This document shows positions 22,363 through 59,172 of a DNA stretch of 64,000 nucleotides, in pieces. The notes beneath the pieces were generated by a model that saw only the letters and a list, made by a program, of their open reading frames with translations, had not been told where the DNA came from and did no database searches. Numbering within the stretch: the first letter of the stretch is position 1; each line of letters starts with the position of its first letter. Both the position numbers and the translations under genes were made by a program. This stretch comes from Alphaproteobacteria bacterium (GTDB lineage Bacteria > Pseudomonadota > Alphaproteobacteria > Micavibrionales > UBA2020): contig JAIOQI010000064.1 of assembly GCA_021413445.1 (NCBI GenBank), forward strand, positions 1 through 64,000, written 5' to 3'.

Positions 22363-22364
22363 AG

Positions 22365-34631: not shown

Positions 34632-34645
34632 AGTTATACTTCCAA

Positions 34646-35662: not shown

Positions 35663-35665
35663 TAA

Positions 35666-38600
35666 TTATGCTGCCTTTTTCTGAGCATCCCTTGTTGCAG
35701 ATTCAATCAGGAATACATCGTCTTCTGAGAGGTCATAAAGTTTATATACTTCAGCATCGATACTCTTTTCCAATTCAGTTACATTCGTATCTGGGTTCTC
35801 TTTCTTTTTCGCTAAAACAGACTTAACGAGCTTTGCAACCTTATCGCGGTTTTTTGCAGGTGGCATTGGGAATGTTTCCATGAACTGAGCAATAAACCTC
35901 ATTCGTCCACCATTCCACGGGTCACCCAAGGGCTGAAACTTGTGCCGTGCATACCAGTCAAACACTGTGCTATTCAAAATCCCCAAGATGGAGAGGTCTT
36001 CTGTGGGTAAGAAGTACATCGTGTTGCCACAGTACACGCTATTTTCGTCATAGGTTGCTCTCATCAGCTTAGCAATGTCAGCATAAACAATTTTAGGTTT
36101 CTCAAACTCCTGCCAATAATCGGCCCCCCAACGCTGCAATGCGTACCATTCGTAACGTACTCCGACTTCATCCTGATTCCGTTTTAACAGCTCCCCTTTG
36201 AATCCAGATATGTATTTATAAATGGCTGGGTATCTCTTTTTGAACGCTTCTTCCGCTTTATTAGAAGGGCCGGATATATCAGCAGACATCTGTAGCGGGA
36301 AGTGCCACGGCAAATAAATAAGCCAGAGGTCGCTATTGTTGCTATACCATCTCTTGACATCTCTGCCGCGTAGCCAAGGCTTAATGACTTCTTTGCTATT
36401 GGCGTCTTCCTCGATCAAACGCTTTTTAGTTGTCCCATCGATAACAAATGCTTCATTCAGCCCCGTTTTGATACCATAGTAAAATTGCCCATTGGCATAT
36501 TTACCTAGAGGTATTCCAACTTTATCCAACTTACGAAGTAAGTCTTTATCTGCGCCGCTGCTAAAGTTCCAGCCTGTCGTCGCCAAGTCAGCTACGAAAA
36601 TCTCTTTTGATGATTTCTTTATACAACTCACAAGATCATTTAAGTCTTCTTTGCGCTTAATAGCTGCAAAATCAATCTTCGTAGTCGGTTTTTCCTTTTG
36701 GAAAAGGATAATTGATGGGTCTGTTCCAGCATCAAAGACTGGCAATTCTCCGAAATCAAGCACCTTCAAAAGCCGCACTTGCTCTGTCATCATTATGCGG
36801 AGATTTTCTCCATAGCCCGCCTTAAAAAATTTATTAGGCGCGATGAAGCAAAGATGTCCCTTAGGTTTCAAAATTTCTACTCCGCGCCTATAAAAATAGG
36901 TGTACAAATCTGCTGTTCCCTTAAAGAAGTCAGGGAATTCAATTTTAAAACCAAGTTTCTGATCTCTAATTTTTTCCTGACGGACATACGGTGGATTGGC
37001 AATGACAATATCAAACCCCCCATCGCCTCCGGCGAAAACGTCGCTAAAGTGAAGCTTCCACAGAAAGTATGGTTTGACGTTTGCCTTTTGCAGTTTTTGG
37101 ATTTCAGTAAGTTTTGCTGTCTTGCTCTGTTCTTTCAGGCTGGTTTCAATAAGCTGCCATTCCAGCTCTTCAATTCTCCCTCGAATCTTTTTCTTATCTG
37201 AGGGGCTGGCAGAACGGAAAAAGTCTGCGTGAAGTTTTTTCAGATGTTCTGCCAATTCACCCGCCTTGCTCTCGATGCTCAACAAAGAAGGGGCTTGCTC
37301 TTTGGAAGTCGTTTCCAGCTTTTTTATATCCCCAGCTTTTTTCTTGATTTCCTCTTCAAGAGCCTTGGTTTGATTTGGCGACATGGCAAAGGACGCGTTG
37401 GCCTTTAGGGTCTGAAGCGTGTTTCGTAGATTATTCAACTCTTCCTGAAGCTGTTTTTTGCGCCGAACGGCGTTATCATGCGTCTTGAGCAGATTTTCTT
37501 TGAAAAGTTTGATGCCCTCATAGCTTTGCAGGAGGCTATTTCCTTGCATGATTTTGTAATCAAGATTGGGCAAAGCCTGAATGTTGTCGAAGCTGTCTTC
37601 ATCTACGACAAGTGAAAGCCACAAGCGGAGCTTGGCAATTTCAATCGCGCCGGGGTCGAGGTCAACGCCATAAAGACTATTATGAATCGTGTCGCGCTTG
37701 AGGTTGTAGTTTGAAATGTCGCCGCCGCAATAAAGAGCCAACACTTTCCGCGCCCTGACAATCTCCATCATCATCCCCACAGGGAAAGCGCCGGAGCCAA
37801 TGGCGGGGTCACAGACCTTTACTTGTGCCAGCGCATCATCAACCGCTTGTAGATTGTCTTGGATAGTTTTGCCAAGGAAAACGTCCTTGTAGGTCGCATT
37901 GGAGCCATCGCGCAGCACCTTGGCATCATGTTCCAGCATGAGGTCGCCGTAGCGGATGAAGTCCTCGACCTCGGTTTTGTCCAATCCCTCTATGTTCGCC
38001 CCAAGATAAGCGATAAGACTTTCCTGACACATATAGTGGACAATTTCGCGCGGAGTATAGAAAGTCCCCTTGTCACCGCGCTCATTCGCGGGTAAGAGCC
38101 TCTCAAAGACCTTCCCCAGCATTTCAGGGTCAATGGCGACTTCACGTTCCAGAGGTTCATCTTCCGCGACAGTAAAGTTATAGCGGTCGAAGACATCTAG
38201 GATGCCCACACCATCGGCACTGAAAAGAGATTTGCCAAGCTTAGAGAATATTTCATTCGGTAATTCAATATCTACGCTATGCCAGTCATAATCGTGGTAA
38301 GCGTCGAATAGGCCGCCGTTGAGAAACGGGATGCGGCTATCAAAAATAGTGTGATAGTGGTCAATATCTGAATGGTCGCGGTTCAAAGCTTCGTAGAAAA
38401 GCTTTTCAAGGTATTCGTTAAAGAAGTTCTGTTTCTGGCTTTTGGCCTTATCGTACAAATCCCGCAGAAATGCTCTTGAGCCTTCGCCCCATTTTTTACC
38501 TTTGGGAACACCAAGCCAGCCCTTCTTCTGCAAGAAATAGAGGAACACTATCTGTCCCAACAGACGCTTGGCGAAGTCTGCGCTTGAAATCTCCCTTTCC

Positions 38601-39265
38601 TCGAAGTGCTTTTTGGCTTTGGGGTTGCCTTTGAGATGGTCGTCGATCTGGTCTTTGACCTTGCCAAAAAGTTCCCTGTATTCATCAAAAAACTCGTCCG
38701 TGACGGTTTCAATATTGAAGGCTTTTTCAAGACTGACCAAGGATGGGCGACTGTCGCTTTCCAGCAGGGGCATAAGTTGGCGTTTCGCTGTGTGCGTCTT
38801 CTCGCCCTGCCCGACAAGGAAGGAAAAGCGGCGGGCCGGGGAAATTTCGTCAAAAGCCTTGGCCTTGCCCTTGGTATTCAGCTTGATGCCAAGTTCCCGC
38901 CGCACCAGCGAAAAGCGCCATGAACCGCTGTCGGGCGCAACGAAAGCTACAAGTGCCGCTTCTTTGCCATGTCCCTTGAGATAACGGGCGATATAATTCC
39001 GCTGGAGCGTCCGCGCACGATCGAGCGACACTTCTTTTTGAAGTGTTACAGCCACGAGATCAATTTCATTACCTTTGTCGTCCTTGATTTTTCCAATACG
39101 ATAGGCTGATTTAATGCCTTCCTTGAAATTATCAGGAATTATGCTGCTTGAATTTCTCTCTTCATAACCTTTGGTCAATTCACGAATAAATGTTTTAAAC
39201 CTGCTCAAGTCAAAGGGCTTGTTGAATGTTTCTTCGATAAGCTTCTTTGCCACCTCTGCCTGCAT
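35666..39265 (-). CDS. Eco57I/type IIG-like N6-adenine DNA methylase, large
   Basis: 1199 residues. The methyltransferase core has the SAM-binding motif C-D-P-A-I-G-S-G-A-F (about 484-493) and catalytic N-P-P-Y-V-R-Q-E (about 757-764), with a long coiled-coil insertion between them (about 590-740). The C-terminal third (H-F-P-L-Q, W-Y-A-R-H-K-F, G-G-R-M-R-F) is a TaqI-type target recognition region. The N-terminal ~450 residues contain E-I-D-L-V-A-V-T-L-Q-K, possibly a degenerate PD-(D/E)XK nuclease. It methylates adenine at a specific site, marking self DNA, and may cut if the N-terminus is active. The helicase gene ends 2 bases before its start. Confidence 0.85.
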   Translation of the reverse strand: MQAEVAKKLIEETFNKPFDLSRFKTFIRELTKGYEERNSSSIIPDNFKEGIKSAYRIGKIKDDKGNEIDLVAVTLQKEVSLDRARTLQRNYIARYLKGHGKEAALVAFVAPDSGSWRFSLVRRELGIKLNTKGKAKAFDEISPARRFSFLVGQGEKTHTAKRQLMPLLESDSRPSLVSLEKAFNIETVTDEFFDEYRELFGKVKDQIDDHLKGNPKAKKHFEEREISSADFAKRLLGQIVFLYFLQKKGWLGVPKGKKWGEGSRAFLRDLYDKAKSQKQNFFNEYLEKLFYEALNRDHSDIDHYHTIFDSRIPFLNGGLFDAYHDYDWHSVDIELPNEIFSKLGKSLFSADGVGILDVFDRYNFTVAEDEPLEREVAIDPEMLGKVFERLLPANERGDKGTFYTPREIVHYMCQESLIAYLGANIEGLDKTEVEDFIRYGDLMLEHDAKVLRDGSNATYKDVFLGKTIQDNLQAVDDALAQVKVCDPAIGSGAFPVGMMMEIVRARKVLALYCGGDISNYNLKRDTIHNSLYGVDLDPGAIEIAKLRLWLSLVVDEDSFDNIQALPNLDYKIMQGNSLLQSYEGIKLFKENLLKTHDNAVRRKKQLQEELNNLRNTLQTLKANASFAMSPNQTKALEEEIKKKAGDIKKLETTSKEQAPSLLSIESKAGELAEHLKKLHADFFRSASPSDKKKIRGRIEELEWQLIETSLKEQSKTAKLTEIQKLQKANVKPYFLWKLHFSDVFAGGDGGFDIVIANPPYVRQEKIRDQKLGFKIEFPDFFKGTADLYTYFYRRGVEILKPKGHLCFIAPNKFFKAGYGENLRIMMTEQVRLLKVLDFGELPVFDAGTDPSIILFQKEKPTTKIDFAAIKRKEDLNDLVSCIKKSSKEIFVADLATTGWNFSSGADKDLLRKLDKVGIPLGKYANGQFYYGIKTGLNEAFVIDGTTKKRLIEEDANSKEVIKPWLRGRDVKRWYSNNSDLWLIYLPWHFPLQMSADISGPSNKAEEAFKKRYPAIYKYISGFKGELLKRNQDEVGVRYEWYALQRWGADYWQEFEKPKIVYADIAKLMRATYDENSVYCGNTMYFLPTEDLSILGILNSTVFDWYARHKFQPLGDPWNGGRMRFIAQFMETFPMPPAKNRDKVAKLVKSVLAKKKENPDTNVTELEKSIDAEVYKLYDLSEDDVFLIESATRDAQKKAA

Positions 39266-39267
39266 AA

Positions 39268-42200
39268 TTAATCAGCCTTTTGATAAAGAGATAAAATGAC
39301 TTCGCGCTTTTCTCGTGTGGTATCCTTGGCAGTCTTACCACTAGGTTTCAGGAATGTCTCATCCACCGCAGAACGCAGGAGGGCCAGCATTTTAAGAATA
39401 TCACCCTTGGCATCTTCCATTTTTTGAACAGCCTTTTGGGCGGTTTTCTTCGGAATAACACCTTTTTCCAGGGCTTCCATTACATCTTTCAGGAAATCTT
39501 GCTCAATATCGGTGAGCCTGTCGTCCTTGCGGATGATCTTGGTAAATTCCCGCAGTCTGGTAAGTGTGCTGCGGCTTCCGGGCATATTGACAGGTTCATC
39601 ATCAATCGGCTCTGTCGCCTTAGCAAAACCTGCCTTATTTTTGTCCAGAAGATCATAAAGATTATCTTGGTCGGATGTTGCAAGGGCGACTGCCTTAGTA
39701 TCCGGTTTGCATTCCATTAGCTTTGCCGCGCCGATAAAATCTAGTTCCTGTGTCCCGCCTTTGCCGCTGGTGATAAATTTGGTCAGATAGCCTTTGCGGA
39801 AGTAGGTAACAAGCTGACTGCCTTTGGCATTTTTTTCCAGACGAGCAGATCGCGCCTTTCTTGGAAGTGTTTTGATTTTCTTGAACAGTTCGGGGTTTTC
39901 ATCCCGAATGGATTGTATAATCCGAAGGTATTTAAGGTCGCTGGCTTCCGCGCCCCCTTCATCTTCCACAGTTTCTTTGGAGTTCAAAATGTCGAACAAG
40001 CCTTTAGGTGTCGCGATTTCATTTTCCGTCAGGAGTTTTGCGTCCGCGCCCAACATTTCAATGAAACTCTCAATCTTCGCCTCCGCTGCCTCCTGCAAGG
40101 CAATTTCGTCATTAACCTCGGCGGTGGGGAAAAAATTGAAAGTGTAAATCTTGTCAAACTTTGTGCCGACACGGTTAATCCGTCCCACGCGCTGCATAAG
40201 GCGGGTTGGGTTCCACGGAATATCGTAGTTAATGATGACATTTGAGCGGTGAAGGTTTACGCCTTCTGCCAAGACTTCGGTGGTCACAAGAATATCAAAG
40301 TCATCCTTCGGCGACCGCGCCTTTGCGTCGAAGTTGTCTATGATGCGGCTCCGGTCATTCGCGGATGAATGGCCAGAAAATGCAATAACGCGCTTTCCGG
40401 TTTCTTTCTCTAGTTGTTTGGCAAGGTATTGCGCCGTCACTTCAGCTTCGGTGAAAATAATCAGCTTCGCATTTTGCAAAACCTTGCGCGATTTTATCTG
40501 TTCCAATAACTCCAATAGTTTTGGATCTCGGTCAACCTTTTCCCACAGCGCGATAATCTGCTTAAGAGTGGCAATATCTCTCTCAAGATCGGGTTTCAAG
40601 TTTTCGTTGAAGGATTTCGCATCGTATTTTTCGGCCTTGCCACTTTCAATGAGTTTTTCAATGTCTTCGTCATTGTCCAGCTCAAGAGCATCAAAAATCT
40701 TGCCCGAATGTTTCGCGCTAAAGTAAACGCTGCCTTGGTTATAGGCTTTTAAGAACATTTCATAGCCGCGCAGAAACCTGTCCAGTGTCTTTCGGAAAGC
40801 TTCGATACTGCTTTCCATCCGTTTGACGAGAAGGATTTTGATAAACCCACGCAAGTTTTTCTGAGCCGTTGCTTCTTGGGGTTTAAGCCCTTCATTGAGG
40901 TAAAGCAGGGCGACATAGCGCGAATAGGTCAAAGTCTTGATAAGTGATACGGTGTCTTTAAAGACTCTTTCCTCGGTTGCATTGAGCTTGTAAAGCAGTG
41001 GCTCCGGCTTTGCAACTTCGGGGAACTTTAAGCCTTGTTGCTCCACGTCCTCTTTGAAATACTGCAATACTTCAGTGCGCGTCCGGCGCACCATGACATG
41101 CTTTAAGATATTTTCTCGCACCTGACGGGCGTTTTCCCGGACGACGCGGATATAGGAGTCGTAATCGGTTTGACGGTCATATTTCTTCGCCTGATTTTCA
41201 AGATGGTTGAAGAAGTGCTGAAGGTTTTTATGGTTCGGAATTGTGCTGTCATGCGGCTTTTGAAACAGCTTCAACAGTGAAAGAATATCGGATGGCCTGT
41301 TGTTGTACGGCGTGGCTGTTACCAGCACGACCTGCTTTCCGTAGCAAATCTGCGAAAGCTTGGCGTAGGTGTCCGTGTCGTCAGAACGGAAGCGGTGCGC
41401 CTCATCAATAAACACGGTCTTATATCTATCCGTACCGGACTCGATAATCTTGTCCAGTTGCCCGATGGACTCATATTTCGCACTTACACCGAAATGATAA
41501 AAGACGTTCGTCCAGGAGCCTTGGTTGTTCCGGTCAAGAAGATGCGGCGGTGCCAACACGAGAATTCTTCCATCCTTATGCAAGCGTTGGGCAAGCAAGG
41601 CCGAAATGTACGTCTTGCCAAGGCCAACAACATCGGACAGAAACACACCGCCGTATTTCTTGATAATCTGGACTGAACTTGTAACGGCCTGATCCTGATA
41701 AGCCAGCTTCATATAATCTTCGGGAATATAGGCGTCCTCGTCGCCTGTCTGGTTGATTTCCTCCTGAAAATACTCATACAAAAGCTTCAGATACAGGTCA
41801 TAGGGGCTGATGCCATCGTTGAGCCACGTTTTTTCATTGACGGTCTGGACGTACTTATCGCTTACGTCCACGGACTTTTCCCAAAGCTCATTGAATTTAT
41901 TTAGGGCATAATCGTAATCGCCCACGTCCTTCAATTCGACGTTCAGTTCCAGATTTCCGGTCAGGCCGGAAACAGAAAAATTGCTGGAACCAGTAACAAT
42001 ACGCCCTTTATCTCGCGCATTTTTGTGAGTCATGATATAGAGCTTGGCATGGAGGTTGCCTTCGGGAAATGCTCGTATTTCTAGCTTTTTCTTTATCAGC
42101 CAGTCTATAAAAGTTCTGACACCGCCTTCGACCTCCTTGCTTTCTTCGACCGCTTCAAGTTCCTTGACGACGGCTTGCGCGTAAACCTCTTTGGTTTCTG

Positions 42201-42462
42201 CATGACTCAGGTTAAGCTCAATCTGCTCACGGCTTTTCTGGATGTGGTCGAAGGTTTTTTGGTCGGTGTTCAGACCAATCAACACCCGAATTTTGTCTGT
42301 CTGTTCAAGCGCGGGGCTGAGCAAATGAAAACCGCTGCTATAGAAATAACCGACAAGGCAATCAAACGCCGTAGTATCGTTGCCAATAAGCGTAATAAAG
42401 CGATCCAATAAGGTTCGCCCCTTTTCATTCGTAATAAATCTAGTATCGGTTGTCATAAACAA
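39268..42462 (-). CDS. SNF2/DEAH helicase with N-terminal phospholipase-D-like domain
   Basis: 1064 residues. Residues ~1-205 are a PLD-like domain with one HKD-type motif (H-A-K at 138-140 and G-S-S-N 158-161), the type used as nuclease or DNA-binding module. Then a superfamily 2 helicase: G-L-G-K-T (280-284), D-E-A-H (353-356), T-A-T-P-Y-N-N, and C-terminal motifs S-G-H-S-S, T-E-V-L-A-E-G-V-N-L and Q-R-V-G-R-I-N-R. The start at TTG 42462 has AGGAG six bases upstream; ATG 42456 is the alternative. With the methylase it forms a helicase-methylase defence operon like those of DISARM- or Hma-type systems, though not identical to any I can name. Confidence 0.85.
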   Translation of the reverse strand: MFMTTDTRFITNEKGRTLLDRFITLIGNDTTAFDCLVGYFYSSGFHLLSPALEQTDKIRVLIGLNTDQKTFDHIQKSREQIELNLSHAETKEVYAQAVVKELEAVEESKEVEGGVRTFIDWLIKKKLEIRAFPEGNLHAKLYIMTHKNARDKGRIVTGSSNFSVSGLTGNLELNVELKDVGDYDYALNKFNELWEKSVDVSDKYVQTVNEKTWLNDGISPYDLYLKLLYEYFQEEINQTGDEDAYIPEDYMKLAYQDQAVTSSVQIIKKYGGVFLSDVVGLGKTYISALLAQRLHKDGRILVLAPPHLLDRNNQGSWTNVFYHFGVSAKYESIGQLDKIIESGTDRYKTVFIDEAHRFRSDDTDTYAKLSQICYGKQVVLVTATPYNNRPSDILSLLKLFQKPHDSTIPNHKNLQHFFNHLENQAKKYDRQTDYDSYIRVVRENARQVRENILKHVMVRRTRTEVLQYFKEDVEQQGLKFPEVAKPEPLLYKLNATEERVFKDTVSLIKTLTYSRYVALLYLNEGLKPQEATAQKNLRGFIKILLVKRMESSIEAFRKTLDRFLRGYEMFLKAYNQGSVYFSAKHSGKIFDALELDNDEDIEKLIESGKAEKYDAKSFNENLKPDLERDIATLKQIIALWEKVDRDPKLLELLEQIKSRKVLQNAKLIIFTEAEVTAQYLAKQLEKETGKRVIAFSGHSSANDRSRIIDNFDAKARSPKDDFDILVTTEVLAEGVNLHRSNVIINYDIPWNPTRLMQRVGRINRVGTKFDKIYTFNFFPTAEVNDEIALQEAAEAKIESFIEMLGADAKLLTENEIATPKGLFDILNSKETVEDEGGAEASDLKYLRIIQSIRDENPELFKKIKTLPRKARSARLEKNAKGSQLVTYFRKGYLTKFITSGKGGTQELDFIGAAKLMECKPDTKAVALATSDQDNLYDLLDKNKAGFAKATEPIDDEPVNMPGSRSTLTRLREFTKIIRKDDRLTDIEQDFLKDVMEALEKGVIPKKTAQKAVQKMEDAKGDILKMLALLRSAVDETFLKPSGKTAKDTTREKREVILSLYQKAD

Positions 42463-42482
42463 AAAAATCTCCTAAGCCTTTA

Positions 42483-42535
42483 AAAAGCTACAGCTTAGGG
42501 GGTACTTTGGCGAGTCAGATGTTTGAAAAGCTACA
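42483..42535. promoter_or_regulatory. direct AAAAGCTACA repeats before the helicase gene
   Basis: AAAAGCTACA occurs at 42483-42492 and 42526-42535, 43 bases apart. A CCTAAGC/GCTTAGG inverted repeat flanks the first copy. They sit in the 124-base gap upstream of the helicase start and could be operator sites. Confidence 0.3.
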
Positions 42536-42586
42536 TAAATTTAATTGCCGATAATTGGGTATTATGGGCAATGGCATTTATCAACC

Positions 42587-43222
42587 CTAAGCGTTCCATA
42601 GCAGGTTATCCAGCTGACGGGGCGTCAGTTTTTGAGAGTATTTTTGTTCAATATCCCTACAGACTCGCAAGCACTTCCCGCAGAATTTCCGGTATTCATT
42701 GTCGGTTTTTGTGTCAGCGTGTACAGCACGGGTAATCTCATCCGAAATCCCCCGAAGAGCTGCAACCGCACGGGTATCAAAGATGAAAAACAGGTGCGGA
42801 AAGTGAAAGTGCAAATATTTTGAAGCCAGAGACCGCTTCTCAAGACCGCTAATTTCTCTGAACAAGCCGGTAAGTTCAAAATGCACGTTCAGAATAACGT
42901 CCAAGCTTTGTTCATTAAGTTCACTGATGCTCTTCAACCTTGAAAACCATGCATCTATCTGCGATTGGCGCATTTTTGGGACAACATTATCGGTATAAAA
43001 TTTTTCTCCCTCGAAAGCCTCATCCGAAGTCTGCCTTCTGCGCTCTATCGCCGCCGCATAAGCCCTGCCGATAAGCCACACTTTGGCATAAATTGCCTGA
43101 TTGTCCGTGTGGTTGGGATGCTTGCTGCAAAGTTCGTACAGTGTCTTATTGCCTAAATCATACATGTACTCCCCAGTAGCGTCTTCAATCATCTGTAGCG
43201 TCAGTTTTTCCATTAAGGCCAC
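42587..43222 (-). CDS. unknown defence-island protein, partner of DUF2779 nuclease
   Basis: 211 residues. GTG 43222 has GGAG six bases upstream, overlapping the end of the DUF2779 gene; this decides the start over ATG 43213. Mostly helical: K-V-W-L-I-G-R-A-Y-A-A-A-I-E-R-R, then G-L-E-K-R-S-L-A-S-K-Y-L-H-F-H-F-P-H-L-F-F-I-F-D-T-R-A near residue 130. This pattern, a conserved Lys-Ser followed by aromatic residues and an F-D-x-R-A, may mark a ligand- or nucleic-acid-binding core. I know no named family. Coupled to the DUF2779 gene and 124 bases upstream of the helicase operon. Confidence 0.6.
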   Translation of the reverse strand: MALMEKLTLQMIEDATGEYMYDLGNKTLYELCSKHPNHTDNQAIYAKVWLIGRAYAAAIERRRQTSDEAFEGEKFYTDNVVPKMRQSQIDAWFSRLKSISELNEQSLDVILNVHFELTGLFREISGLEKRSLASKYLHFHFPHLFFIFDTRAVAALRGISDEITRAVHADTKTDNEYRKFCGKCLRVCRDIEQKYSQKLTPRQLDNLLWNA

Positions 43223-43225
43223 GTT

Positions 43226-44713
43226 TTACTCCATTATTTTTTTGTGCAGAGCATCCGCCAAAACCTTCATGGCACGGGTATCGAGGCCGCAGTATTCGGT
43301 CAGGTCGCGCCAGAGTTTTTCGGTTTCATCCGGCGACAGCTTGCCCTGCATGAAGTCGAGGTATTTCTGCGAGGCGTCCTGGCCGTTGCCGATAGCCATG
43401 CCGTCGTATGACAGGTCAGTAAAGGCCGGGAGGACTTTTTTGATGGTGGCCGACCCGTTCTGGCTGGGGTGGTAGAGCCAGCGCTTCTGGAACGGCACCA
43501 GCAGATCGACCATCCGGGCGTTGATCGCGGCGATTTCTGCGCTGACGGCGGGGTAAGCCAAAATCAGGGCTTCGTTCACGCCTTCCTCGAAAGACTGGTT
43601 ATAAACGATGACACTGCCGTCACTGCCGCACAGCCGTATCAGGGCTTCGATGAAATCCGGGCGCGGGTCTTTGTGGTTTTGGTGCAGGAATGTGTGATGC
43701 CGGAGTTCAGCGCCGGGGCTGTCCTCGATATGCAGGGAGAACTGGAACGGAACGGCCTGGAACGGCCTTGTGCCATTGAAAAGCGGTATCGCGGAGCCGA
43801 CCGTTTCATAGTCGAGATAATAAAGCGGGTATTTCAAGCGCTCCAGAAAACCCCGGATGTTGTCAGGCTCGGCGTAAGTTTCGCCGCTGGTGTAGCTTCG
43901 TACATCCTTCCCCTTGACGCCGCCGGGAATAGCCTGTGCGGGAATGCTCTTGACCTCGTAGCTGCCGAGGCTTTCTACCATCTCGTCGGCTTTTTTGCCG
44001 GAGAAGACGTTGTATATGGAGTAATCGGGAATGCCCTGCCAGCAATGACCGATATAATCGCAGTCGAAGGGCTTGAAGCATCGCGCCCCGATTTTCTCCT
44101 GCGGCTCATCCTTGCCGTCGAGTGTGGTTTTCAGCGCCGGGACCGCCCCGCCGACTTCCGGCTGCTTCGCCAGCACAATGGCGGTGATGTCTTCCAGCTT
44201 GAATAGGCGCTGCGGATCAATCTCTCCGTCCCGCACATATTGATTGTCGATCACCATCATAAAGCATCGGTTGATGCGGTATCCCGCGCCCGTGAAGACG
44301 CGGTACTGGAATGACATATCGTCATGGTGGTAGTCCTTGACGCTGCTCGAACCCTTCACTTCGATCATATCCCAGGCATCCGCGCCGGGGGCTTTTCGCA
44401 GGATGTCGATGCGCGCATGCGTCCCATCCTGCGCGTGGATAGCGGTCGCCTCGAATATCGTGTTATGCCCTGCGGCGATGAGGGCCGCTGTTGCCCCCGT
44501 GCCTTCCTGCGTTTTGTAATAAGGCACTTTTACCTCAACGCCGCCGGGGAAACGTTTCTTCGCCCATTCCCCGACCTCGTTCCCGGCATCAAAGATCGCC
44601 TGTTTCACGGCATCGAACGGGGGCGTCAGGTCTTTGCGGTTCAGGGAAAACCATAGAGCTTTCGAGCACTGGCAGCCTTTGACGTATTGAGACTTGGATA
44701 TAGTAGGTTTCAT
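43226..44713 (-). CDS. DUF2779-family nuclease (Cas4-like plus RNase H-like domains)
   Basis: Start at ATG 44713 with GAGGGA gives 495 residues; an upstream in-frame start at 44752 has weaker support. The N-terminal half resembles Cas4/PD-(D/E)XK proteins: C-x-C-S-K-A-L-W near the start, D-x-I-E-V-K-G-S (catalytic E-x-K, about 110), and a Cys motif C-D-Y-I-G-H-C-W. The C-terminal half carries Y-Y-L-D-Y-E-T-V (DnaQ-like exonuclease Asp/Glu) and V-I-V-Y-N-Q-S-F-E, ending in Y-C-G-L-D-T-R-A-M. Function is not established for the family; a DNA end-processing nuclease is likely. It is divergent from the HTH-GTPase gene, from which 169 bases with operator repeats separate it. Confidence 0.78.
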   Translation of the reverse strand: MKPTISKSQYVKGCQCSKALWFSLNRKDLTPPFDAVKQAIFDAGNEVGEWAKKRFPGGVEVKVPYYKTQEGTGATAALIAAGHNTIFEATAIHAQDGTHARIDILRKAPGADAWDMIEVKGSSSVKDYHHDDMSFQYRVFTGAGYRINRCFMMVIDNQYVRDGEIDPQRLFKLEDITAIVLAKQPEVGGAVPALKTTLDGKDEPQEKIGARCFKPFDCDYIGHCWQGIPDYSIYNVFSGKKADEMVESLGSYEVKSIPAQAIPGGVKGKDVRSYTSGETYAEPDNIRGFLERLKYPLYYLDYETVGSAIPLFNGTRPFQAVPFQFSLHIEDSPGAELRHHTFLHQNHKDPRPDFIEALIRLCGSDGSVIVYNQSFEEGVNEALILAYPAVSAEIAAINARMVDLLVPFQKRWLYHPSQNGSATIKKVLPAFTDLSYDGMAIGNGQDASQKYLDFMQGKLSPDETEKLWRDLTEYCGLDTRAMKVLADALHKKIME

Positions 44714-44781: not shown

Positions 44782-44835
44782 AAACGTTTCTTAAAAAAAA
44801 TGAAACGTTTCTTTACAAACTATAAAACGTTTCTT
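44782..44835. promoter_or_regulatory. three phased AAACGTTTCTT repeats (operator)
   Basis: AAACGTTTCTT starts at 44782, 44803 and 44825, i.e. spaced 21 and 22 bp, two helical turns, with a palindromic AAACGTTT core in each. They fill the intergenic region between the DUF2779 and HTH-GTPase genes, the position expected for autoregulation by the HTH domain. Confidence 0.7.
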
Positions 44836-44882
44836 ATAGTCATAGCAGTGATTCTTATTTTTTAATCTTTTAGGAGCAGCAA

Positions 44883-47012
44883 ATGAAAAACAACGCCGCA
44901 AGACAGCACGAAATTGGGCACTACTTAACAGAAATTCGTGAAAATGCAGGAATAAAACAAGCAGACCTTGCTCGAAAAATTACCTGGAGTCAGGCGGTGC
45001 TTTCTCGGGTCGAAGCTGGAGAGCGAGATTTAAGCTCGGACGAATTAGAAGCCGTTTTAAAAGCCATTGGCACAAAGGATGCCTTATCCTTATCTGATCG
45101 GCTTAATAGGACATGGGAAATATTGCCAGCACCACCGCTGAACCATCCGGATCAAGATATTCTGTGGGCAGCAGAAGAGGTCGCTAAAGAACTGGCGGCA
45201 CTACGATCAAGGCCGGATATTAAACATGCTTTTGAGCGCCGTCTGACAGAGTATCTGTCTGAATTTCAAAATAATGCAAGTCTGCTCCTCAAACGCACCC
45301 ATCAAATAGCCTTTGTAGGCAGTATAGGTATTGGTAAGTCAACAGCTATATGCCGTTTAACTGGCCTTGAGATAGCCAGCCAAGATGGCGGGCCATCCCC
45401 AGTATTGGAAGCGGGTGCTGGCGGGATTACAATTTGCGAGGTGCAGCTTCAACAGGGGCCTGACTATGGAATCAGAATTGAGCCTCGTAGTGATGAAGAA
45501 ATTCGTGCAGATATTGCCGATTTTGCAGAGCATATCCGAAAAGGCGACTTAGATAACTCATCAGAAACAGACGGTGATTCTCAAGGCATTTCAAAAGAAA
45601 TAGAACGTGCCTTAAGGAACATGACGGGTTTGGGGGTGCGCCGTGAAAAAGATTCCGATGGAAAAACTATACGCCGCGATGAGGCAAGGGAACTCAGCCA
45701 GACATTGAACTCAACAAGAGAACTGATTGTTGAGATGCTTGCAAAAATGGAAATTCACCGGAGGGACCGTCGGGATATTTGGTATCCTGCCAGCGCGGAT
45801 AAGCCCCCCCTTGTCTGGCTTAAAGAGACTTTCGAGCAGATCAATAATGGACGCCATCCTGATTTCACGCTTCCTAAGCGAATTGACGTTATAGTTCCGC
45901 ATGAGCTAGTTAAAGGCTCTGATCTCACAATTCACATTATTGACACTAAAGGTATAGACCGTACAGCGGCCAGAGCGGATTTGGAGGGGCACTTTGATGA
46001 TTCTCACACTCTGTCTGTTCTTTGCTCTGGTTTCAACAACGCACCAGCGGCTGAGGCACGGCTTTTACTAGAGCGGGCAAAGGAAGCTGGTGTCAGGGGA
46101 TTGGAGCTGAATGCCTCTCTATTAGTGTTGCCACGTACAAACGAGGCCCTCGCAGTAAAAGATGAAACGGGCATACGGGTCGAAACCGTTGAGGAAGGCT
46201 ATGAACTCAAGGGAGAACAGGTTGAAATGGCTTTGGAGCCAATAGGCCATAAGTTTTCAATTGGCTTTTTTAATGCTTATGAAGATGACCCGGATAAGCT
46301 GCGTGAATTCTTGATTGGCCGTCTTACTCAAGTAAGACATTCTTTCCGAAAAAAAATGGAAGAAATCACAGACAACGCAAAGAAACTTTTAAACAATCAT
46401 GAGCAAGAACAAACACAAGAAGTTATTCGTCAGGCTGCCAAAAACCTTCAAAGTTGGATTGCGCAAAATGCAAACGTGCCTACATTAAATGCGCATATTC
46501 AAGACAGTTTAATGAATGCAATGTCGAATGTATACGCGAGTACCCTTCGGGCAACAATACGACGGGATGGAGAATGGCAGAACCTAAGCTACTCTCACCA
46601 CCTTGGTTACGGCGCACGTCTTATGGCAGCGGCGTCATTAAGCAGACTTGTAGAAAACTTTACTAGCCTTTGTAAGACGCTGACCGGAAACTCTGAATAT
46701 GCGGATGCGCAAGATTTAATTAATCAAGCTGATCGTGTCTTGCAAACATCTTTTGATGAGCTTCTTCGCAAATTACAACTCATGGGGCAAACTTCTTTTC
46801 GTGAAGCTCTGAAACTTGATGCTGCATTTTGGTCGGGATGCGATAACGAGTGGGGGAAAGGGCCGGGATATAAGAATCGTGTTACAAATCGCAATGAAAT
46901 ATGGTTCAAAGATACAGCAAGGCAAGAACTTGAAAGCGAGGTTCGGGCACTTATAAAGCGTGAATGGTCTCAAACACTGACCCGCGTAAAAAGTCTTTTT
47001 GACACCGAGTAG
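44883..47012 (+). CDS. HTH-XRE domain fused to dynamin-like P-loop GTPase
   Basis: 709 residues, ATG 44883 behind AGGAGCAGCAA. Residues ~9-62 are a Cro/C1-type helix-turn-helix (I-K-Q-A-D-L-A-R-K-I-T-W-S-Q-A-V-L-S-R-V-E-A-G). Then a large P-loop domain: F-V-G-S-I-G-I-G-K-S-T (Walker A, 144-154), a G-G-I-T switch threonine near 182, and I-I-D-T-K-G-I (DxxG, Asp354). No clear N/T-K-x-D motif. The C-terminal ~220 residues are long helices as in dynamin stalks. Such proteins remodel membranes or sense infection; a repressor domain on the same chain is unusual. Three operator-like repeats precede the gene. It could be a self-regulated defence switch. Confidence 0.75.
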   Translation: MKNNAARQHEIGHYLTEIRENAGIKQADLARKITWSQAVLSRVEAGERDLSSDELEAVLKAIGTKDALSLSDRLNRTWEILPAPPLNHPDQDILWAAEEVAKELAALRSRPDIKHAFERRLTEYLSEFQNNASLLLKRTHQIAFVGSIGIGKSTAICRLTGLEIASQDGGPSPVLEAGAGGITICEVQLQQGPDYGIRIEPRSDEEIRADIADFAEHIRKGDLDNSSETDGDSQGISKEIERALRNMTGLGVRREKDSDGKTIRRDEARELSQTLNSTRELIVEMLAKMEIHRRDRRDIWYPASADKPPLVWLKETFEQINNGRHPDFTLPKRIDVIVPHELVKGSDLTIHIIDTKGIDRTAARADLEGHFDDSHTLSVLCSGFNNAPAAEARLLLERAKEAGVRGLELNASLLVLPRTNEALAVKDETGIRVETVEEGYELKGEQVEMALEPIGHKFSIGFFNAYEDDPDKLREFLIGRLTQVRHSFRKKMEEITDNAKKLLNNHEQEQTQEVIRQAAKNLQSWIAQNANVPTLNAHIQDSLMNAMSNVYASTLRATIRRDGEWQNLSYSHHLGYGARLMAAASLSRLVENFTSLCKTLTGNSEYADAQDLINQADRVLQTSFDELLRKLQLMGQTSFREALKLDAAFWSGCDNEWGKGPGYKNRVTNRNEIWFKDTARQELESEVRALIKREWSQTLTRVKSLFDTE

Positions 47013-47090: not shown

Positions 47091-48845
47091 TCATGATCTA
47101 AGAACGACGCGGGCGTATCGCTTAATGTCAGTGGTCAACTTCGCCTTTAGTATCCGAGCCACATAACTCTGATTCTTAAAATAGTTCGCGTAGGACAATT
47201 CCTCCCCCTCACGCTTTGAGTAGCTTCGCGTTTCCTTTTTATAAGCCAAAAGAATTTGGTCGATGCATGCTTTCGTCAGCTTACGCCAATTGCTGTGATG
47301 CGCTGAATTATACTCCGTCCATTGTCCGCTAAGCTGTCCGGTTAAATCGGAGTCGCCCCATTTTGCGCCGACCTCCGTCAAAGCTCGAACTACAAGACTA
47401 AAGAGCGCGAAATACTCATAGGTTTTTAAACTTCGGATGTAAACTTTATCCGTCGCCAATCTGCTGCGGCTTTCCCACAACACGTTATCGAGAAAGTAAA
47501 GCTGGAAAGCCAGTTCAGCCGATGTTTCGCGAATTTTTTCGTAAATATCCCCTTCAAATAAATCCGCCACATTTTTTGCAACAGCTGGACCTAAGCGCTG
47601 TTTTGACCAGTAAAAACTTGCAATCAACTGCGTATGCCATTTAATGCTTGTTCCATATTGAATTCCGACACTACGCAGTTCACGACTGCGCTGCCTCCAT
47701 TCGCGGTCGCGCCGCTCATAGAAGTACCCTTTATTGCGGAAGAAGCGGAACAACTCTAATTGGAAGTCATCATTTGAAGCCAAATCCCAACTCTTGATTG
47801 GGTTCTGTTGATTACTGCGCACGGCAATCTTTCCGATGACTTCCTTGCGTTGCTGGATTTTCTGGTCTAGCGCATCGCCACGCGGGGGTTCAATCTCAAT
47901 AACTCGAACCATGACACGGGCGTTGGCCGAAGGATTTGGCACGTCACGGATACTGTGCAGTGTCTGTGACCCATTTACCACTCGTGGGTTATCCAAGGTC
48001 AGTATCTTTCCGCCTGGGTCGTAATGCTGCTTCTCGCAAAGCATTGTGATACCATTGTTACTAAACGCGAACTCCTTAGGGCTCGTCTCGAACGTATGAC
48101 GAATTCCTTGATTTACTTTTGAGCGCGAAACACTGATGGCGACACGCACATTACGATTAAAGAGCAGGTCAAAAGGGTCGCTCTCCATGTACCGGATGAA
48201 ATCTACCAGCCGCGCGAATACGATGGATGTTGCCACCTCCGTGTCGGACTTATCTGCTGGGAGGAGCGCGTGAATCGCATTGAGATGAATTGGGGGTGTG
48301 CGCGGCATCGCGCCATCTATGTCGTCTACAAGGCACTGTATTAGGTCTTCCATGTGGAACACCTTTAGCGCTGGGATGTTTTTTACCTGTTCAAAATGAG
48401 CATCATTGCAACGATGATTGGTGACGAACATCAATTCAGCCGCACCGCTATCGTAACGCTCAAACAGATGCTTGTACCGAGGTCTGAGTTCTGGCTTTAC
48501 GGCTTTTTCCAGGTAGGCGGCGCGGGCAGTGCGGTTTTCAAAAGCCTGCCAAAAATATTTGATTTCTTGATAGAAGGAGGGGGGCGCAATCTTGCTGAAC
48601 TCCTTCGTGAATTTCGTGTTGAGGACGTGATGCAGAACAGTCTTACCGTTGTCTGTAGTAAAGAATAAGTCAATCTTACCGTCTTTTGAACCATCGGACA
48701 CAAAGATGTCACGTGGACTCATAAAGAACAGTTCGGCAAACCATCGACCAAACGCTTGCGGTTCAGCATCAAGATGTTGTTTCTGAGTTTCCTTCACACG
48801 TTTGAGCATGAACTCAAAGAGGTCGCTCTTATGTTGTATTGACAT
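47091..48845 (-). CDS. AIPR-family (abortive infection phage resistance) protein
   Basis: 584 residues. The hallmark AIPR core is present: F-N-R-N-V-R-V-A (about 225), F-A-F-S-N-N-G-I-T-M-L-C, N-P-R-V-V-N-G-S-Q-T-L-H-S-I and V-R-S-N-Q-Q-N-P-I. The N-terminal 150 residues contain G-K-I-D-L-F-F-T ... H-H-V-L-N-T-K-F, similar to a PD-(D/E)XK nuclease active site. Family members were first described in lactococcal abortive infection plasmids. It is monocistronic and convergent with the GTPase gene (78 bases between stops). Confidence 0.82.
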   Translation of the reverse strand: MSIQHKSDLFEFMLKRVKETQKQHLDAEPQAFGRWFAELFFMSPRDIFVSDGSKDGKIDLFFTTDNGKTVLHHVLNTKFTKEFSKIAPPSFYQEIKYFWQAFENRTARAAYLEKAVKPELRPRYKHLFERYDSGAAELMFVTNHRCNDAHFEQVKNIPALKVFHMEDLIQCLVDDIDGAMPRTPPIHLNAIHALLPADKSDTEVATSIVFARLVDFIRYMESDPFDLLFNRNVRVAISVSRSKVNQGIRHTFETSPKEFAFSNNGITMLCEKQHYDPGGKILTLDNPRVVNGSQTLHSIRDVPNPSANARVMVRVIEIEPPRGDALDQKIQQRKEVIGKIAVRSNQQNPIKSWDLASNDDFQLELFRFFRNKGYFYERRDREWRQRSRELRSVGIQYGTSIKWHTQLIASFYWSKQRLGPAVAKNVADLFEGDIYEKIRETSAELAFQLYFLDNVLWESRSRLATDKVYIRSLKTYEYFALFSLVVRALTEVGAKWGDSDLTGQLSGQWTEYNSAHHSNWRKLTKACIDQILLAYKKETRSYSKREGEELSYANYFKNQSYVARILKAKLTTDIKRYARVVLRS

Positions 48846-51055: not shown

Positions 51056-52015
51056 TTATAGTATAGCAGCTGCGTTCCCATGAAACAAAGAGCCATTTCT
51101 TATGTATCTAGCAAGCATGGCGTCCGATTTATGGCCTGTCTGCTCCCGGATTTTAAATGATGATATGCCAGCCATTGCCGCGCTGGTGGCGAGGCCGCTG
51201 CGGAGGCTATGACCGGAAAACTTCTCCGGTGACAATCCCACTTTTCCCACCCGCGCCTTGATGATATTGGCCATTGAGCGGTCGCAGAGGTGCATCTCGG
51301 TGACGATGCCCTTGTCGATGCCCCGAAAGATATACCCGGACGTAATTCCGGAACGCACCAGCCAGTCTTGCAGGATGCGAACGGGGCATATTTTCCCGCG
51401 CCCGAAGGGAACGCCTATCTTCCGGCCTTCGCCTGTCTGGTCCGTCTTGCTGCGGGGAAGGGTCAGGACAAGCCCCTCGGACGTGAACGCTAAGTCCTCG
51501 TGCCGAACGCGGCAAAGCTCCGAGCGCCGTAATGCCCCGCAGAACCCTAGCAGCAGCAAAGCCTTGTCTCTTGCCCCGCGCAGATCGTCGGGCGTATAAG
51601 AAAGCACCAGCAGAAGGTCGTCACGGCACAATGGACTGACCTGTTCTTGGGGTTTGCCATGCGTCCGGCGTATTCCGCGCATCGTCATGCGAATTAGGTC
51701 ATTCGTCGCTGGGGAAGGGTATCCCTGCATGGTATGCGCTTTCGAGATAGCGGCTAAGCGCCTTGTCAGCGTTGCACAGGACAGCAGCCCCGCGTGGGCC
51801 GCGAGGTACTCGGCCAGCATTTCAGGGCTGCATGGAATAGACCCGCCCCATGCCTTGTAATGCTCTAAATCAGCCCGGTACGCCTTTCGAGTGTTTTCCG
51901 ACACTGCCCGGTCAAGGTATTGACTAACTGATTCATTATTTGCAACTGATTGCAATTTTCTATTCGTTTCATGCAATTGATTGCAAGGGCTGTTATCAGG
52001 TCGCACTTCAGTCAT
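51056..52015 (-). CDS. second tyrosine recombinase (XerC/D-like)
   Basis: The start at ATG 52015 overlaps the upstream stop by 8 bases (ATGACTGA), giving 319 residues; the frame stays open to 52072. N-terminal core-binding domain (S-E-N-T-R-K-A-Y-R-A-D-L-E-H-Y-K-A-W), then the catalytic domain: first Arg in G-A-L-R-R-S-E-L, H-S-L-R-S-G (His and second Arg), G-H-K-S-D and the Tyr nucleophile in L-A-R-Y-I-R. This is unlike the P4-type integrase at the tRNA and may act inside the element. Two copies of the TTGCAATTGATTGCAA palindrome lie within its first 80 bases. Confidence 0.88.
   Translation of the reverse strand: MTEVRPDNSPCNQLHETNRKLQSVANNESVSQYLDRAVSENTRKAYRADLEHYKAWGGSIPCSPEMLAEYLAAHAGLLSCATLTRRLAAISKAHTMQGYPSPATNDLIRMTMRGIRRTHGKPQEQVSPLCRDDLLLVLSYTPDDLRGARDKALLLLGFCGALRRSELCRVRHEDLAFTSEGLVLTLPRSKTDQTGEGRKIGVPFGRGKICPVRILQDWLVRSGITSGYIFRGIDKGIVTEMHLCDRSMANIIKARVGKVGLSPEKFSGHSLRSGLATSAAMAGISSFKIREQTGHKSDAMLARYIRNGSLFHGNAAAIL
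51940..51986. repeat. two TTGCAATTGATTGCAA-type palindromes inside recombinase gene
   Basis: TTGCAACTGATTGCAA at 51940-51955 and ATGCAATTGATTGCAA at 51971-51986, 31 bp apart (three helical turns), within the N-terminal codons of the recombinase. Each differs by one base from the copies at 30993-31008 and 53997-54012. Confidence 0.65.
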
Positions 52016-53138
52016 TCTTCGCCTCCGCCGCTGAGAATAAATCCGCTTCTGCCCCGTACAGGCTGCGTTCAAGCTGTTTCAGCCGGAGTTCATTGTATAA
52101 ATCCCAGTGTTTTATCAGGGTGCGGGTGAGAACGGCGTATTCCTGCTGGTCAAGGCCAAGATCGAGCATTAACGCGTGAATGCTGCTCTCCCTGAACCTA
52201 TCCAGAGCATCCGAGGTCAGACGCTGGTCTATATTCTCGCCGCAGATGAAAAACAAGGTTTCGCCCAACTGCGCTGGGGTGTAGCCCTTCAATGCCGGTA
52301 CGGTCTTTTGTAGCTGCCGGACGCTGGCCTGACCTATCCTTGTATATAGCGGGTCGATGGCAAAGGCGGGGACAGTCTCGAACTCCGGCGACGACAATGG
52401 CCGCTCCTGATGCACCCGCAAATCCGTCTTCTGCTGTTCAAAGATTGTCCATGCCAGCGGCATAAAAAGAGGTAGGGGATACGGCATGTCCCGCAGAACG
52501 GCGATACAGGTTTCCGTCAGTTCCGGCGGTGCTGGGAGCCGCCTGAGTGCGTCCGCAGCAACCGCTATATCGCCCGTCCGTGTGAACCCCTTTGCCGGGT
52601 AAGCCTTTGTCCCAGCCAATGCCCAAAGAGCAGTAAAGCGTTCATGCGGCTGCCTGTCTGGGTCGAGTATGATATTACCAAGTTTCTTATTTCCTGCCTT
52701 TTCCGCGCATGTCCGAGCTTTGGCTGTCTCTACGGAGAGGTCGATATAGAACAGCATCTCTGTGAGGTACCGAGATTTGACAGACGCCGCCATTTTTCGG
52801 GCTAGATGCACGGCCAATTCCGTGTCGCCTATTTCACGCCGCCATACCGGACATTTATAGGCAGCTACTACCTCCTGCACCACATCGGGACCACCCATGC
52901 TGCAATCCTCGAATGCTGTGACCAGTAATCTCCGCCATAGCATCCGGCGGTCGGCGTATGCCAGAGGCAATGCGAAGGATGCAGCCAGCTTCTGGTCACC
53001 CCGCCTGATACTTTTCTGCAATCCCGAAGCGGCGACCCATTTATCACAGCCGATAATCGGGATACGTTTCAGGCCGGTAGCGGGAATTTCTGCGGCAAGT
53101 CGGGTTAGGATGGATTGGAAGCTGAAGGATGAAAGCAT
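52008..53138 (-). CDS. unknown island protein with possible RarA/clamp-loader-like helical domain
   Basis: ATG 53138 with AAGGG upstream gives 376 residues; the frame opens at 53168. N-terminal half: L-Q-K-S-I-R-R-G-D-Q-K-L-A-A-S-F-A-L-P, then R-R-M-L-W-R-R-L-L-V-T-A-F-E-D, which resembles the C-terminal helical part of RarA/MgsA-type AAA+ proteins, but no Walker motif is present. The rest is helical with no known motif. It is coupled to the recombinase gene by an 8-base overlap, pointing to an accessory role for DNA recombination or replication restart. Family assignment is tentative. Confidence 0.55.
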   Translation of the reverse strand: MLSSFSFQSILTRLAAEIPATGLKRIPIIGCDKWVAASGLQKSIRRGDQKLAASFALPLAYADRRMLWRRLLVTAFEDCSMGGPDVVQEVVAAYKCPVWRREIGDTELAVHLARKMAASVKSRYLTEMLFYIDLSVETAKARTCAEKAGNKKLGNIILDPDRQPHERFTALWALAGTKAYPAKGFTRTGDIAVAADALRRLPAPPELTETCIAVLRDMPYPLPLFMPLAWTIFEQQKTDLRVHQERPLSSPEFETVPAFAIDPLYTRIGQASVRQLQKTVPALKGYTPAQLGETLFFICGENIDQRLTSDALDRFRESSIHALMLDLGLDQQEYAVLTRTLIKHWDLYNELRLKQLERSLYGAEADLFSAAEAKND

Positions 53139-54145: not shown

Positions 54146-55282
54146 TCATTTGTCCCCCTGTCCATGTATCCAGACGAAATCCTTATGACTTAGTATGATA
54201 CCCTCCTTTTCCAACGTCCCAATGGCTCGCTTTATGGCCTTGTTGACAGCCTCCTCCTTATCAGAAGAGGAAATGCCAGCAGTTTTCAACGCTTCACGGA
54301 AATCACTCATAGAGACGGCAGTGACGGGCATACCCCCAACATGGATATGCTCTTCGCCCTTTTCGGCTATCAGCTCTTCCAGTACATCAAAAGCAAGTTT
54401 GGCTGCGCCCGACAGCTTCGGCTTGTTTGCCGGAGCGACAGTAGGGATGAGAACGCAGGAAGTTATTGCCTCTCCATCCTCATCCTTTCCGATTTCAACA
54501 GGATCAAGGCTGAAGTGAAACTTACTGCCAGTGGGCTTATCCCGCTGTTTTTTGACCTCTGCGGTGACTATATTATTGCTTTTGGTCACTTCTATCTCCG
54601 TATCGACTGCTGCCCGTAATGAGCTATGGCCCCGCGCACCCCGGCCGCTCTCTTTGCCGGAATGATGGATGATCGAGATATGCGCCTTTGTTATCTCCCG
54701 AATTCTGTCGCAGTTAATGATAAAGGCTCCCATATCCTCCGAACTGTTTTCATTGCCGCCGGACATGGCACGGCTCAAGGTATCAATTACAACAAGCACA
54801 ACGTTTTCATGCTTCTGAATTTCCTTGATAAGCTCCAACGTGTCGTTCCCGGACGTGCACAGGTTAATGCCGACATGGATAACGCGGAGAGGAGCATGGC
54901 CTTTCATCCCATGACGGAGCCTGAAAGCCTCCAGACGCTCCTCGATACCAAGGCCACCCTCTGCAGCAATATAGATGACCGTTCCCTGCCGAACCTTATA
55001 GCCGCACCAGTCGCTGCCCAAGGCAACGTGTATGGCAAGGTCGAGCAGCAGGAAGCTTTTCCCACAGTTGCTCTCACCGAACACAACGCTCATAGCTGTT
55101 CTATCCAGCAACTTTTTGACTAGATGCTCTCGTTTCGTGCATTTTTTAAGCTCTGCCCAGGCGACGGATACGATTACCTTCTTTTTGTTATCCTGTTCCA
55201 GAGGAAATGCATTACTGATGCTGTCCTTGACAGCCTGTAGGCCGTGTTTTTGGTGCAGGTCGTTGAAATCCATGCTTTGCAT
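54146..55282 (-). CDS. RepA-like hexameric replicative helicase/ATPase
   Basis: 378 residues. RecA-fold ATPase of the phage/plasmid RepA group: Walker A G-E-S-N-C-G-K-S-F (about 69-77), Y-I-A-A-E-G-G (about 105), Walker B V-V-L-V-V-I-D-T-L-S-R (about 160), and S-I-I-H-H-S-G-K (about 205) followed by R-G-A-R-G-H-S-S. The C-terminal 100 residues look like a winged helix. It unwinds DNA for replication of the mobile element. The upstream toprim gene ends 2 bases before its start, forming a primase-helicase pair. Confidence 0.83.
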   Translation of the reverse strand: MQSMDFNDLHQKHGLQAVKDSISNAFPLEQDNKKKVIVSVAWAELKKCTKREHLVKKLLDRTAMSVVFGESNCGKSFLLLDLAIHVALGSDWCGYKVRQGTVIYIAAEGGLGIEERLEAFRLRHGMKGHAPLRVIHVGINLCTSGNDTLELIKEIQKHENVVLVVIDTLSRAMSGGNENSSEDMGAFIINCDRIREITKAHISIIHHSGKESGRGARGHSSLRAAVDTEIEVTKSNNIVTAEVKKQRDKPTGSKFHFSLDPVEIGKDEDGEAITSCVLIPTVAPANKPKLSGAAKLAFDVLEELIAEKGEEHIHVGGMPVTAVSMSDFREALKTAGISSSDKEEAVNKAIKRAIGTLEKEGIILSHKDFVWIHGQGDK

Positions 55283-55284
55283 GA

Positions 55285-56118
55285 TTATTCCTCCCTTGGG
55301 TATGCGAGAAAGCCGCCGACTGCCGCTACGGCAGCTCTGGCTTGGGTTAGACCGGGGTTGCCGGGGATCTGAGCATCGTTATCAGCACAAATGACGATCT
55401 TAATATCAGGAAATTTGGTCCTGAATGCTTTAGCGACGGGCTGGAGGTTCCCCGTATCGAATGCGACTGCTACGGCATGGCCCACTGCCTCATGAATGCT
55501 AGCTGCAGTTGCATAGCCTTCAGCGATATAAATGGCCTCCGAAGGTTGACCGATAATATAGCAGCATCCTTTCTTCATACCCCCTGAAAGAAATCGTTTT
55601 TCGCCATCAACTCCAATGAACTGTAAGCTGTGCAAAACACCATCCGTATCCTGAAGAGGGATAACAAGCCTTTCCTTGGATTGACGTAAGCCATAGTTTT
55701 TGACCATCTTTTTAGTCAGATAGGAATGGTCATCTGAAGCAGGTGGTGCAGCTTGCCAAATAGAGGCTGCCCTTTCACGGGCTTGCCGTTTTATTTTCTG
55801 GTACTCCTCTTCAAATGCTTTCTGTGCAGCCTCCATTTGCTGCTTCCATTTTTCCTGCTCTTCAGGTGTCATGGAATGTGGATCTTTTGCATACCACCTT
55901 TCCTTGATGCCGCGCCTCCAGCAGCCAAAAATCATCATCTTCACATCACCCCAAAAAATGATATACCAGCCATTTTTGGTGCCAGACTTGTCGCCTTCGA
56001 CATGAAAGCGGTGAAGCTTGCCATCCATATAAAGGCTGCTATGGTTTTTTAAACCGGCTGCCTCCATTACCTGCAGGAACCGTGCAACTTCAGTTACTGG
56101 GAGATTGTTCTCTTGCAT
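55285..56118 (-). CDS. toprim-domain primase-like protein
   Basis: 277 residues. N-terminal region with a G-W-Y-I-I-F-W-G-D segment, a charged helix of about 50 residues, then a toprim domain: A-I-Y-I-A-E-G-Y-A-T-A-A-S-I (conserved Glu near 200) and I-V-I-C-A-D-N-D-A-Q (Asp-x-Asp near 245). This is the small primase type in P4-like satellites and integrated plasmids, working with the neighbouring RepA-like helicase. Gene spacing is 2 bases on both sides. Confidence 0.82.
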   Translation of the reverse strand: MQENNLPVTEVARFLQVMEAAGLKNHSSLYMDGKLHRFHVEGDKSGTKNGWYIIFWGDVKMMIFGCWRRGIKERWYAKDPHSMTPEEQEKWKQQMEAAQKAFEEEYQKIKRQARERAASIWQAAPPASDDHSYLTKKMVKNYGLRQSKERLVIPLQDTDGVLHSLQFIGVDGEKRFLSGGMKKGCCYIIGQPSEAIYIAEGYATAASIHEAVGHAVAVAFDTGNLQPVAKAFRTKFPDIKIVICADNDAQIPGNPGLTQARAAVAAVGGFLAYPREE

Positions 56119-59010: not shown

Positions 59011-59172
59011 GGGGGTATCGTCCTTTCCTGGTTGAAAAAATGCCCCCGTAGATACCCCCAAATTGGTCGGATTGGGTCGGTTTTCCACGGATCAAGACGG
59101 ACTTCAGATGATCTGAAACCCGTTGTTTTACTAGCGTTTTTGATGAATGCCGGAATATACCGGAAGTATGAA

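Follow-up and report, generated by a model that had tools for sequence, protein, structure and literature searches.

Dynamin-like proteins are known as membrane machines, and dynamins hinge at the helices that precede the G domain. In the bacterial dynamin-like proteins (DLPs) IniA, BDLP, C. jejuni DLP1/2 and DynA, the G domain lies between N-terminal helices and a C-terminal neck and trunk. During phage infection, B. subtilis DynA relocates to the membrane and postpones lysis (PMC8844932); IniA binds lipid via a positively charged loop (PMC6715688). LeoABC (Eleos) represents island-borne anti-phage dynamins. A different group of proteins, the C-proteins known from restriction-modification systems and other XRE autorepressors, acts on tandem palindromes in the promoters of their own genes. 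In the XRE-RES toxin-antitoxin systems, the promoter contains several operator repeats for the system's own repressor complex (PMC12204516); these systems comprise two genes and lack an NTPase.

The window, i.e., the whole 64,000-nt stretch of DNA analyzed here, contains a gene with likenesses to both groups. It encodes an XRE helix-turn-helix (HTH) and a dynamin-fold NTPase on one chain (HTH-NTPase) and, as in XRE autorepressors, tandem palindromes are located in its own promoter. By analogy, the mode of action of HTH-NTPase may be that of an XRE autorepressor to which a dynamin-fold NTPase has been attached. No described HTH-dynamin fusion was found in the open-licence literature.

DNA-binding head and predicted fold of HTH-NTPase

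The HTH-NTPase gene (44883–47012, forward strand, as are all features below unless stated otherwise) encodes 709 aa, is preceded by a good ribosome-binding site (AGGAG, 44872–44876) and has about 120 relatives. Residues 10–68 (44910–45086) form an XRE/Cro-CI HTH, as in XRE-type autorepressors (Pfam HTH_31, E 7.2e-11; HTH_3, E 2.4e-9), with the recognition helix SQAVLSR at residues 36–42. By sequence, the nearest solved structures to this HTH are small regulators, e.g., C-proteins, and the family profile of the HTH also matches HipB-type regulators. The head thus belongs to the same HTH family as C.BclI, the Esp1396I controller and HipB. Whereas C-proteins and HipB are small, with or without a partner toxin, the HTH is joined here to an NTPase of 640 residues.

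The dynamin-like nature of this NTPase part is barely visible from sequence alone, as both Pfam and PADLOC miss it. Pfam Dynamin_N reached E 0.12 and 12.8 bits, below the gathering score of 27, and matched one of ten relatives tested (E 0.047). The PADLOC LeoA profile matched weakly (E 0.045; E 0.0055 in one relative). Among the PADLOC 2.0.0 system proteins no full-length match was obtained, and the HTH alone matched generic HTH models. Membership in Eleos was rejected on the weak LeoA match and the lack of LeoA/LeoBC paired genes: HTH-NTPase is dynamin-like and island-borne as LeoABC is, but is a single gene with an HTH.

The relationship became apparent from the predicted structure. With an alignment of 76 homologues as input, AlphaFold2 returned a model with a pLDDT of 90.2 and a pTM of 0.89, as compared to an unusable model (pLDDT 35) from the single sequence without an alignment. 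In Foldseek searches against the PDB, IniA (E 4.5e-8) and BDLP (E 5.1e-8) ranked highest, and the top group, ranging from 4.5e-8 to about 1e-5, also included the C. jejuni DLP pair and mitofusins. VIA-align gave Z of about 13 for mitofusin/Fzo1 and of 12.9 for IniA; the IniA alignment spanned residues 90–708 with 399 residues at a high rmsd of 8.6. When the G domain alone was aligned by VIA, unrelated G domains and other GTPases reached similar Z. A dynamin-like layout, with a G domain and a helical neck/trunk, is well supported by the predicted model, while strict membership in the dynamins is not supported. The combination of an HTH and a dynamin-like part on one chain, as proposed in a first-pass annotation of this DNA, was borne out by the Pfam match and the AlphaFold2/Foldseek comparison.

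As in bacterial DLPs, the predicted G domain follows N-terminal helices and precedes a C-terminal neck/trunk-like part (residues 470–706, 46290–47000; AlphaFold2 model and IniA alignment), and three of the nucleotide-binding motifs are intact. These are G1 with the P-loop GSIGIGKS (residues 146–153, 45318–45341), the G2 threonine T183 within GGITICEV (45429–45431) and the DxxG motif of G3, DTKG (residues 354–357, 45942–45953). Residues G146, G151, K152, T183, D354 and G357 are invariant in 84 sequences. Unlike in bacterial DLPs, an XRE HTH is present at the N-terminus, about 130 residues are inserted before G3, no membrane-inserting tip was seen and the gene is single rather than one of a pair. 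In addition, the TKxD/NKxD of G4 is replaced by LPRTNEA (residues 416–422, 46128–46148), conserved in the 84 sequences as L (82), P (74), R (67), E (76) and A (76). The G4 motif is a determinant of GTP specificity. Since the LPRxxEA form is non-canonical, the use of GTP is an assumption, and the protein is referred to as dynamin-fold rather than as a canonical dynamin.

The similarity to IniA, BDLP and mitofusin in the predicted fold, together with the behavior of DynA upon phage infection, would fit a membrane-remodelling dynamin of the IniA/DynA kind that works at the membrane during phage attack and whose dose is limited by the HTH. The tip of the predicted stalk argues in the other direction. 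It is a tight turn at residues 600–606, short and mostly acidic across the family, which contrasts with the positively charged lipid-binding loop of IniA, and no hydrophobic stretch was seen in the stalks of the family. The predicted tip therefore gives no support to membrane insertion, and we consider a membrane-remodelling role unlikely.

Promoter operator sites that vary with the recognition helix

A sigma-70-like promoter (TTTACA-17-TATAGT, 44812–44840; 10 of 12 consensus matches) was found upstream of the HTH-NTPase gene. Three exact copies of AAACGTTTCTT accompany it: the putative operator O1 (44782–44792), O2 (44803–44813), which abuts the −35 and overlaps the perfect palindrome GAAACGTTTC at 44802–44811, and O3 (44825–44835) inside the −35/−10 spacer. 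Their starts at 44782, 44803 and 44825 are 21 and 22 bp apart. In the window, seven matches to the repeat with at most one mismatch were counted, as compared to 1.4 expected, and 0 of 100 shuffled sequences reached seven. Thus, the three repeats two helical turns apart described in the first-pass annotation were recovered. Its description was revised in two respects: the unit is more aptly taken as the palindrome (G)AAACGTTT(C), and there is one further site, O4 (GAAACGTTTCTT, 44549–44560), beyond the region it had covered. O4 is located within the coding sequence of the divergent DUF2779 gene and includes an exact copy of AAACGTTTCTT from 44550. The codons under this site are not conserved among DUF2779 relatives, so protein constraint does not explain it.

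The HTH and the operators are real and the head is most like those of C-proteins and HipB-type regulators, which would also fit a conventional transcription factor that governs a wide regulon and whose NTPase part serves only as a ligand sensor. Pattern scanning of the 2.11-Mb genome, however, located paired sites at this locus only and GAAACGTTTC just twice, at 44549 and 44802. As relatives lacking the HTH also retain the NTPase part, a wide regulon appears highly improbable.

Relatives were identified by a pattern scan with one genome per species, using patterns drawn from the NTPase part alone. The scan yielded 119 relatives, of which the best 80 were fetched. The first-pass annotation had named absence of the HTH from close homologues, or of the repeats upstream of them, as findings that would speak against it. 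Although the search patterns came from the NTPase part, the HTH was kept in 76 of the 80 relatives fetched from genomes, and palindromic operators, as expected of XRE-type autorepressors, were conserved in the relatives' own promoters.

Two classes of promoter palindromes were defined after inspection of the upstream regions: G(A/C)AACRTT(G/T)C (class A) in one part of the family and GCATATATGC (class B) in another. When the 150 nt upstream of the gene were searched at 88 loci with G(A/C)AAYRTT(G/T)C, allowing at most one mismatch, class A sites occurred at 43 loci versus 8.4 in order-1 shuffles, and two or more sites at 28 loci versus 0.3. Class B, searched at the same 88 loci with at most two mismatches to GCATATATGC, was found at 33 versus 8.2. 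At 30 loci, 26 strict class A sites lay within 100 nt upstream of the start as compared to 3 in 192,453 nt elsewhere; these loci had been picked for showing class A, which inflates the figure of 26 and leaves the background of 3 unaffected. About a fifth of the relatives on the tree (17 of 83) carry neither class, which counts against autorepression. In its favor, A or B operators are missing from all five HTH-less relatives.

The sites are also ordered relative to each other and to the promoter. Spacings of 11–12, 19, 21–23, 31–32 and 42–43 were observed, with clusters at 11, 21–22, 31–32 and 42–43, and at a period of 10.5 bp the 27 spacings gave a resultant of 0.88 with a phase near zero, a value matched by 0 of 20,000 uniform draws; this is not a strict probability, because shared ancestry and promoter geometry contribute. 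Counted from the first base of the −35, class A sites are located at −10 and at +10 to +12 at many loci, including that in the window. Class B sites lie over the −10.

The operator class followed the recognition helix: SxAVLSR is the helix that accompanies class A, and DQSRVSR accompanies class B. When the HTH region was left out of tree building, the class A label required 6 changes versus 28 after shuffling. Two relatives inside the class A part of the tree, L050 and L051, have the recognition helix SQTVVSR instead, and the operator of L051 is GCATATATGC despite its place there. Judged from these sequences, L051 looks like an independent switch. Operators changed together with the repressor head across many phyla.

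Spread and neighborhood of the gene

Relatives were found in Pseudomonadota, Actinomycetota, Chloroflexota, Acidobacteriota, Planctomycetota, Verrucomicrobiota, Cyanobacteriota and Thermodesulfobacteriota. They are uncommon within the class to which the window belongs: of 289 sampled genomes, 2 have one, the window's own genome included. Nineteen plasmid records and one viral contig carry a relative; none was found in phage records, and the Mangrovibacter relative L019 had no DNA match in the E. coli genomes searched. The tree is at odds with the species, which points to horizontal spread. The relatives L045 and L068, one from a record named Frankia sp. RB7 and the other from a Bradyrhizobium, are nearly identical, reflecting either recent transfer or a mislabelled assembly. 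The relatives lacking the HTH, with starts near or after residue 88, are L008 (from the plasmid collection), L055, L056, L084 and L090.

In the window, the divergent DUF2779 gene (43226–44713, minus strand, likely ATG at 44713; Pfam DUF2779, E 4.5e-42) heads a minus-strand operon (33966–44713), followed by an unknown 211-aa gene (42587–43222), a PLD/SNF2 helicase, a type IIG-like methylase and two unknown genes. The operon looks like a defence system related to parts of DISARM/BREX that is not matched as a whole. An AIPR-family gene (AbiU/MzaE-like, 47091–48845) is convergent with the HTH-NTPase gene. Further away, an Arm-type tyrosine integrase adjoins a tRNA-Glu gene (57787–59248), AAA_25 and Toprim genes are present at 54146–56118, and a second Xer-like recombinase at 51056–52072. 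Together these genes give the region the look of an integrated island; within the window, no att repeat of the tRNA-Glu end was detected. A long array of 99-nt repeats in a large ORF (21201–24299) encodes 33-residue units that are ankyrin-like by eye.

The divergent arrangement suggested that HTH-NTPase could be a regulator of the defence operon next to it (DUF2779, helicase and methylase), in which case the NTPase would receive the signal and self-repression would be secondary. The start region of the DUF2779 gene lies between O1 and the site at 44549, and both genomic copies of the perfect palindrome are at this locus. Other loci speak against this proposal. None of the 88 other loci contains DUF2779, the 211-aa gene or AIPR, helicase and methylase match weakly and at one locus only (L004), and operators follow the HTH-NTPase gene's own promoter. 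DUF2779 relatives also occur without the HTH-NTPase gene: a 55% identical gene in another genome of the class has none nearby, nor do more distant ones on Arcobacter and Hydrogenimonas plasmids. DUF2779 was thus rejected as a general partner, the co-occurrence proposed in the first-pass annotation being seen at 0 of 88 other loci, and a primary role in regulating the operon is improbable. Of the annotation's co-control of the divergent gene, a local form may still apply because of the perfect site at 44549, with the DUF2779 gene as a possible local target only. At a guess, this site might serve as an auxiliary operator comparable to lac O2 and enable co-control of the divergent operon in this strain.

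More generally, no neighbor is common to more than five loci. A conserved downstream effector was sought and none was found: the immediate downstream genes differ (GmrSD, PD-(D/E)XK, OLD-type, L-PSP, TnpB and others). Among the neighbors are Gabija (GajA), Hachiman (HamA), pAgo, a type I methylase and GmrSD, alongside many housekeeping genes. Near and far neighbors matched 201 versus 129 PADLOC families, a weak difference; the link to defence is loose since defence genes also occur further from the gene. With such variable neighbors, defence genes frequently among them, the gene has the appearance of an autonomous module that has spread horizontally.

Individual arrangements include the Pseudanabaena plasmid of L008 (11908–14616), where the HTH-less relative is directly followed by a PD-(D/E)XK/HsdR-N nuclease gene, possibly a two-gene form. 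On two sphingomonad plasmids (L004, 11971–16084; L005, 3149–7262), a GmrSD-type DUF262 gene begins 22–31 nt after HTH-NTPase, and in a Paracaedibacteraceae genome (L029, 2446–3561) the relative is followed by a TnpB-like gene at a distance of 10 nt.

Proposed mode of action

The HTH, the dynamin-like predicted fold, the operators with their phasing and place in the promoter, and the co-change with the recognition helix emerged directly from comparison. From the sequences we infer that operator binding amounts to repression. The gene is very probably autorepressed, because phased palindromes in the promoters co-change with the recognition helix and paired sites occur only here in the genome. 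The same conserved, co-varying operators favor the first-pass proposal that the protein represses its own gene.

Taken together, HTH-NTPase is probably an autonomous, self-repressing dynamin-fold NTPase whose head would bind palindromes in its own promoter and whose NTPase part may be the working end. The XRE head would bind the short palindromes as a dimer, with O2 at the −35, O3 between −35 and −10, and O1 one double turn further upstream. Several molecules lined up along one DNA face would shut out RNA polymerase, so that the protein would be kept scarce and the gene would limit its own dose. The NTPase/helical part is read as the effector because some relatives have the NTPase part alone, and it may be the working end of a single-gene, island-borne module that is possibly anti-phage. 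At the same time, the five HTH-less relatives work, or once worked, without the head, which counts against self-repression as part of the best explanation.

Less firmly, the nucleotide or assembly state might alter DNA binding, and activation would then also lift repression. The direct joining of the HTH to the helices before the G domain would suit such coupling between the NTPase and DNA binding. The first-pass annotation proposed release once the GTPase domain engages membrane or a phage signal; such a release would be speculative, and no sign of either signal was seen. That the NTPase is itself a transcriptional switch, in which assembly driven by nucleotide or target pulls the HTH dimers off the phased operators, so that activation would set the effector to work and at once derepress its synthesis, is conceivable as a tentative reading.

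Here, a dynamin-fold protein carries a repressor head whose operators changed alongside it across many phyla. Should DNA binding depend on the state of the NTPase, the protein would be a dynamin reporting its own status into gene expression by means of one gene. The operator rule, i.e., two palindrome classes, helical phasing and a defined place in the promoter, allows a direct test of the idea and recognition of the family from promoter sequence.
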